Below are positions 20,803 to 23,800 of a DNA stretch of 40,000 nt, piece by piece. The stretch's first letter is position 1, and each line of letters starts with the position of its first letter. The notes beneath the pieces were generated by a model. The model searched no databases, was not told where the DNA came from, and saw only the letters and a list, made by a program, of their open reading frames with translations. Source of the DNA: Tubiluchus corallicola (lineage: Eukaryota > Priapulida > Priapulimorpha > Priapulimorphida > Tubiluchidae); the NCBI GenBank assembly GCA_030141605.1, contig JAQGDQ010000754.1:1-40000 (forward strand), written 5' to 3'. The translations under genes were made by a program, and so were the position numbers.

Positions 20803-23800
20803 TTATGTTTTGTATGAATTGGAAGCTACGCATAAAATATTTACCGATTCATATACTGTCCAAGCCATGGCTGCCATGAGTGTCCTTCGTAATGTTCTTG
20901 GCAACAAACCCTTAAAATACCCAGTGGGACCGTACACCTGTAAACATTACAACACCTGTAAACATTACAACACCTGTAAACATTACAACAACACCTGTAA
21001 ACATTACAACAACACCTGTAAACATTACAACAACACCTGTAAACATTACAATACCTGTAAACATTACAATACCTGTAAACATTACAACACCTGTAAACAT
21101 TACAACACCTGTAAACATTACAATACCTGTAAACATTACAACACCTGTAAACATTACAACAACACCTGTAAACATTACAACAACACATGTAAACATTACA
21201 ACAACACCTGTAAACATTACAACAACACCTGTAAACATTACAACAACACCTGTAAACATTACAACAACACCTGTAAACATTACAACAACACCTGTAAACA
21301 TTACAATAACACCTGTAAACATTACAACAACACCTGTAAACACTACAACACCTGTAAACATTACAACAACACCTGTAAACATTACAACAACACCTGTAAA
21401 CATTACATCAACACCTGTAAACATTACAACAACACCTGTAAACATTACAACAACACCTGTAAACATTACAACACCTGTAAACATTACAACAACACCTGTA
21501 AACATTACAACAACACCTGTAAACATTACAACAACACCTGTAAACACTACAACACCTGTAAACATTACAACAACACCTGTAAACATTACAACAACACCTG
21601 TAAACATTACAACAACACCTGTAAACATTACAACAACACCTGTAAACATTACAACAACACCTTTAAATATTACAACAACACCTGTAAACGCTACAACAAC
21701 ACCTGTAAACATTACAACAACACCTGTAAACATTACAACAACACATGTAAACATTACAACAACACCTGTAAACATTACAACAACACCTGTAAACATTACA
21801 ACAACACCTGTAAACATTACAACACCTGTAAACATTACAACAACACCTGTAAACATTACAACAACACCTGTAAACATTACAACAACACCTGTAAATGCTA
21901 CAACAACACCTGTAAACATTACAACAACACCTGTAAACATTACAACAACACCTGTAAACATTACAACAACACCTGTAAACATTACAACAACACCTGTAAA
22001 CATTACAACACCTGTAAACATTACAACAACACCTGTAAACATTACAACAACACCTGTAACTGTGCCAGTTATCAAATAAGGCACAAGCAAAGGACTTCAA
22101 GAACAATACAGCTATCAAATAAGGCACAAGCAAAGGACTTCAAGAACAATACAGCTATCAAATAAGGCACAAGCTAAGGACTTCAAGAACAATACAGCTA
22201 TCAAATAAGGCACAAGCTAAGGACTTCAAGAACAACACAGTTATCAAATAAGGCACAAGCTAAGGACTTCAAGAACAATACAATGTACCGCTAACTAAAA
22301 ATATCTATTTACTAAAAATCATTTTCATACTTTGTACACGTAGACGACAGCATCCCAAATTGATGTGAATCTGTTGGGAAACAGCTGCATCTTTGTCTTG
22401 ATGACATCCGCAGGTTGGGTGATTACTGCAGCCAAACAACCCGATGTAACGCCACAGCCGAAGTGTACCACCGGCACATATTCACTTTCCATTATATCTG
22501 CACATTAATAATCACTCTTACAGAAAATGAGTTAATAATAATAATAATAATAATCTTTATTTAAAGTCGGCTTTTGTGTCAAGAATTAACATTAGCTCAA
22601 AGAGCTATTATCGCCGACTGTAAATAACAACCTTCAACTACATAACAGAGACTATTATTACCCCACTTTTACCCTAAATACCACGCGTCAGGCAGGGCAA
22701 CAGCAGGTATAAAGCAGACGCATTACCACTAGACTAAACCGTCTGGTCAGAGTTGACGAGAAAATCTAGCTCAACTTATTGAAATCTTTAGAAAAAAGCA
22801 TGCAATTTGTCAAAAAATCGACTTTCACGTGTTCTACACAAAGAAATGTGTGACTAGTTAAGTCTTAGAAACCGAAGGCACAATATTGCTGATAAAAAAA
22901 CCGACAGAAAATGCATTGCAAACGGTTCAACAGTCATTCAAAATGGAGATGAAAAATGGTTAATCAGTAGCAGGCTGATGATTCAGTAATAATAGAACTT
23001 GATTCGCATTGTTAATGAAAACCCTAGCAACCTTAATTAACAACTTTTGCACTGATAATGTGTCTGTCACTGCTACAGAGTTCCCATGATCAGGAAAAAT
23101 CCTGGAAAATCCTTGAAAATTTCCTGGAAAATCCTTGAAAATACAGACTATCCTGGAAAGTCATGGAAAAAGATAATTTGGTAAAAAAATCAGGGAAAAT
23201 GATGAAAATTGGGAGAACACCCAGGGAAATTGGAAAGGGTTGTAAAAATAATCACCGTGAGCCGATATTTTTCCAAACATATTTTTCAGCAATTCAGGTT
23301 CAAATGAAATTTTGCCATGACAGGCTCCCAGTTTCGATTTCTGTTACAAATTAATGATTGGATTAAGAAAGTTTATTTAATGTGATTAGTGTAATTTCGT
23401 TAGCACTACTGCAACTGTGCCGACATATTGTATATCAGTATATGTATGAATGTCCATACACAAAAATGTTTGAACATGTATACTGGTAATGCAATTTCTG
23501 CTTATCTTGGTCATGGAAAATCAATATTTGGTCAGGGAAAAGTCATGGAAATTTATTTTAAAATTCGGTGGGAACCCTGCTACTATGATAAACGTAGCTA
23601 CATATTATTCTTCAAAACTCTGATGTTCGAAAATCTGAATCTCTTTATTTTGCAAAATCTGACTAATATCTTTTTCAGCAATGTTGTAGGGCAATCTCTT
23701 ACCTTTGTTCTTTGATATCTTCAGAAAATTAATAGCAGTGTCAACTCTATATCTTTCATCAAATAATCTTATTGAATGTTCTTTTAATTATGACAGATAC

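Follow-up and report, generated by a model that had tools for sequence, protein, structure and literature searches.

The minus strand of the window (the whole stretch of 40,000 nucleotides that was analysed) carries an SLC25A38-type gene in which 55 tandem units, nearly all of them ending like a 3′ splice site, run through intron 7 up to the acceptor of exon 8. We consider it probable that this array is a mirage, that is, a minisatellite derived from tandem duplication of the SLC25A38 intron 7–exon 8 boundary, and that it is mostly passive in splicing. A sequence-only reading of this DNA had described a satellite of splice acceptors at this place; the satellite is real, and the known class that it resembles was left unnamed there.

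The carrier gene and its acceptor-unit array

On the minus strand eight exons were located, which together code for 278 residues of an SLC25A38-type carrier; the exon numbers 7 and 8 used below assume one further exon upstream of these eight. The last 85 residues of the predicted carrier match Mito_carr (PF00153), and among the best 120 of 1529 protein matches the closest is an SLC25A38-like protein of Priapulus caudatus (67% identity). In a tree of 32 rows, of which the 31 others were hand-chosen and in which the deeper forks are weakly supported, the window gene and Priapulus caudatus are joined with support 100/99 and Branchiostoma stands apart; we therefore regard the window as probably priapulid. 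Sequence and tree together thus point to an orthologue of the mitochondrial glycine carrier SLC25A38, its transport activity being predicted. Matches to the carrier among solved structures are mainly uncoupling proteins, and a search of phage records with the carrier gave no match. The exons referred to below are the following:

22331..22497, minus strand: SLC25A38 exon 7, located by its peptide; ends GTG TAC AAA, donor GTATGA from 22330
20845..20937, minus strand: SLC25A38 exon 8; 31 codons (93 nt), in phase 0 at either end, followed by donor GTAAAT from 20844
19821..19850, minus strand: last coding exon of SLC25A38; MMKAVGLKA and stop

Bases 22497-22496 of exon 7 complete a split codon. Intron 7 measures 1393 nt, about 96% of which is taken up jointly by a 43-bp array and by the 21-bp array that is the subject of this report, with these parts:

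22066..22282, minus strand: five copies of a 43-bp unit (TRF), the main part of what remains of intron 7
22054..22059, minus strand: TTACAG, six bases of overhang at the array's left edge (computed overlap), a candidate ancestral acceptor
20938..22053, minus strand: acceptor-unit array of 55 units, 42 of 21 bp and 13 of 18 bp (direct reading and TRF)
20938..20955, minus strand: terminal 18-bp unit GTGTTGTAATGTTTACAG, the acceptor predicted to give the full protein (gap-free alignment over the joint)
20934..20937, minus strand: GTGT, the first four bases of exon 8, in which the repeat continues (computed overlap)

Split at its TTTACAG-like ends, the array reads from 22053 down to 20938 (minus strand) as a gapless run of whole units. 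The same 21-mer, GTGTTGTTGTAATGTTTACAG, makes up 35 of the 55, and 53 end in AG, the remaining two in AT, which bears out the earlier count of about 55 copies of the intron's 3′ splice site. TRF calls the array at 20934-22059 (period 21, 55.5 copies, 93% matches); the span of 20938..22059 given earlier becomes 20934-22059 with both overhangs. Scanned at up to three mismatches, GTGTTGTTGTAATGTTTACAG has 50 matches in the 40,000-nt window, every one within the array (0.02 expected) and none in the window outside it. Exact scans for the unit in viral contigs and prokaryote genomes gave no matches, which is little informative for an animal repeat. Eight of the thirteen 18-mers fall in the last 11 units, on the exon side, a clustering reached by none of 5000 shuffles, with the cut at 11 picked after the map had been seen. 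When edge units were compared with interior ones for signs of homogenisation, this exon-side block differed from the interior and the intron-side edge did not.

The 43-bp array carries an acceptor-like TCCTTAG in three of its five copies. No kinship with the 21-bp unit was found: their longest common word has 5 bases, a length reached by 1715 of 2000 shuffles. A further array, ten copies of 22 bp at 19304-19523 (TRF), lies just past the stop of SLC25A38 and probably belongs to its 3′ UTR. By eye, two tRNA-derived-looking SINE copies ending AATAAAGATTATTATT (minus strand, approximately 22530-22750 and 26840-27090) can be recognised, in which ARAGORN found no tRNA, as well as a possible remnant of a DNA transposon, an element present twice (minus strand, approximately 18290-18621 and 24076-24412) and having inverted ends like CAGTCGACCCTCGTTAAACCGGAC. 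In other parts of the window, seven long ORFs lack a Pfam match.

One predicted productive acceptor among dozens

At the exon 7/8 joint all 15 homologues compared align without a gap, the Priapulus RVYG corresponding to KVYG in the window, so that the last acceptor, at 20938, should be the productive one and the normal protein should come only from this copy. This agrees with the earlier proposal that the terminal unit is the acceptor of exon 8 and that the exon continues the repeat with GTGT. In the frame of exon 8 every one of the 55 units contains TAA or TAG, the other two minus-strand frames holding 2 and 0 stops; the claim that use of an upstream copy adds a TAA holds for the in-frame stop, some of the stops being TAG. 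Use of the first acceptor would give a 1209-nt exon with a stop after 3 codons; with the next-to-last the exon would measure 111 nt and 2 codons would be read before the stop, 102 nt short of the exon's end. Either choice would cost the protein its last 40 residues. Counted by unit ends only, the upstream AG competitors number 53, namely 52 array units and the flank acceptor ending at 22054, which refines the roughly 55 near-identical acceptors first suggested.

Bases −7 to +4 of the last acceptor are identical in 48 of the 55 other sites and bases −30 to +4 in 5 of them, the first exon base to depart from the repeat unit being +5. A small matrix was built from the seven other acceptors of the gene. 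On it the acceptor of exon 8 scores 3.6, a value at least equalled by 51 of the 73 other AGs in the stretch and reached by 9% of the 326 intronic AGs in the rest of the gene. Scored leave-one-out, the seven themselves run from 1.75 to 10.22, two of them below 3.6; the idea of a weak exon 8 acceptor was rejected, as its score falls inside this range. RNA folding as the selector of the last site was not borne out either, since in predicted accessibility the last acceptor ranks 38th of 56 (7-mer) and 35th of 56 (AG) and is hence no more open than the others. Neither the matrix, nor the comparison of sites, nor predicted folding revealed a local signal that singles out the last acceptor. As its local bases are common to dozens of sites, the choice of acceptor probably draws on information further away.

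Selection of the exon-adjacent acceptor by exon definition appears to us the likeliest explanation. The array would be mostly passive and the spliceosome would take the last acceptor because exon 8, through enhancers of its own and through the donor that lies 93 nt on, would define the nearest one. Upstream choices would extend the exon and run into a stop two to three codons on, a long way from the next joint; the resulting transcripts would be degraded or be too few to matter. The words GAA and AAG each occur 3.2 times per 100 nt in exon 8, versus 0 and 0.09 in the array, a richness that fits exon definition without testing it. The appeal to exon definition leans on general knowledge of splicing, together with the CBS and amphioxus cases described below.

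Probable boundary duplication and its alternatives

Ten bases spanning the exon 7/8 joint, TTACAG/GTGT (the slash marks the joint), also mark both edges of the array. Any array born by slippage should have a short overhang, so this ten-base repeat shows that the joint was included and does not tell which end came first. If the array is removed and its flanks are joined, a plausible intron end results, with the word TGATAAC resembling the branch consensus. The candidate ancestral acceptor at 22054, however, scores low on the matrix, at −0.52, the value of the present acceptor being 3.6. We take it as most likely that the intron–exon boundary itself was duplicated in tandem to give the array. 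An ancestral joint ...GATAACTGGCACAGTTACAG/GTGTACGG would have been copied in such a way that the ten bases TTACAGGTGT came to stand as direct repeats separated by 8 or 11 bases, and slippage or unequal exchange would then have expanded the 18/21-bp unit. The 18-mer block beside the exon fits an old exon-side end with later growth into the intron; other histories fit too. Growth from the exon boundary, as the sequence-only reading suggested, is made likely by TTACAG/GTGT and the 18-mer-rich exon end, the outward direction being a proposal.

An unrelated minisatellite that ended at the acceptor by chance, sharing GTGT by accident, would account for the same position. Arrays near exons are to be expected here, since tandem repeats of period at least 9 make up 18% of the window (1-40000), and two others do lie close to exons of this gene, one 49 bases from exon 7 and a short one (19860-19899) 10 bases from the last exon. 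However, among six TRF arrays of period at least 9 within the located gene only the acceptor array overlaps a joint, and the match on the two edges extends over six intron and four exon bases, so that we regard such a coincidence as improbable. Somewhat less improbable, although still unlikely in our judgement, is a regulated brake, in which upstream acceptors would take a sizeable share of splicing and lead to a stop and decay, the length of the array tuning the amount of glycine carrier. The stop present in all units, with two other frames nearly open, speaks for it, as do the high small-matrix scores of most other AGs; as only one of three frames is closed, the coincidence lends weak support. 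Where variation touches the stop codon, in four cells, it is always a change of TAA to TAG and no unit lacks a stop, a small point in favour of the brake. Against it, conservation of the AG is no higher than chance: 2 of the 16 variant cells in the 1116 array bases fall on the AG versus 1.6 expected, giving no sign that upstream AGs were either kept or purged, although with no more than 16 cells weak selection could go unnoticed. In addition, the amphioxus counterparts are reported to splice normally (PMC3087553; PMC3902484).

That the array folds so as to conceal its internal acceptors while the last stays accessible has very little probability in our view. In its favour, none of 30 shuffles folds as well as the array (z −5.2), the z-scores of three roughly 120-nt stretches are −1.8, −1.6 and −2.3, and by eye UUGUAA pairs with UUACAG; shuffling destroys the repeat, however, so the z-score may be inflated, and the accessibility ranks given above run counter to the idea. 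Least credible of all is stepwise (recursive) splicing through an AG joined to GT, as found at each AG-ending unit, because the donor part GTGTTG is unlike the gene's donors GTAAGT, GTGAG, GTATGA and GTAAAT, and steps of 18/21 nt seem too short for a spliceosomal intron.

A probable mirage in another phylum

The array compares best with the amphioxus mirages, described as minisatellite-like tandem duplications of an intron–exon boundary, many units of which hold AG/GT signals (Ebner et al., 2010, PMC3087553; PMC3902484). In the window, the units likewise span the boundary, the array taking in the acceptor of exon 8 plus the first four bases of that exon, and a splice signal is present in many units, the AG in 53 of 55. 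Amphioxus mirages are described in Adh3, the globins BflGb6 and BflGb9, and troponin C, the last added by PMC3902484, which also likens imperfect PGBD5 repeats to mirages; regular splicing is reported for Adh3, the globins and troponin C (PMC3087553; PMC3902484). Both systems have boundary-spanning tandem units with splice signals, those of amphioxus Adh3 measuring 10-72 bp as reported there, whereas BflGb6 is reported with 3 and 6 units of 150-160 bp, against the 55 units of 18/21 bp, four exon bases included, of the window. The phylum differs too.

Duplicated joints are also on record in human CBS. The 844ins68 variant duplicates an intron 7/exon 8 joint, of which the distal site is strongly favoured according to PMC2630376; this site is termed a "donor" in that paper and a 3′ splice site in the title of the study cited there. 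It resembles the window array in its duplicated intron/exon joint and differs in being a single 68-bp duplication, with no array (PMC2630376). The 31-bp VNTR of CBS, c.1444_1467+7(16_21), by its name runs from the exon into the first seven intron bases in 16-21 copies (PMC2630376) and hence spans a boundary as well, but on the donor side and with a longer unit than that of the window array. The earlier dilemma, in which either the last acceptor is picked out or many truncated transcripts are tolerated, is accordingly not new: the amphioxus arrays are reported to splice normally, and CBS to use the distal site.

A broader view, that such arrays are general in animals and act as acceptor reservoirs, copy number setting the use of upstream stop-bearing acceptors and a fast-mutating repeat tuning, from one individual to another, how strongly a haem-synthesis gene is dosed, strikes us as a long shot. 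With the gene placed beside that of Priapulus caudatus in the tree, the array would be a mirage from outside the amphioxus phylum, made of many copies of a tiny unit. As far as the open-licence literature searched shows, in which the mirage reports are both on amphioxus, this would extend mirages beyond amphioxus, and it would offer a natural test of how the spliceosome chooses one acceptor among dozens of like local sequence.
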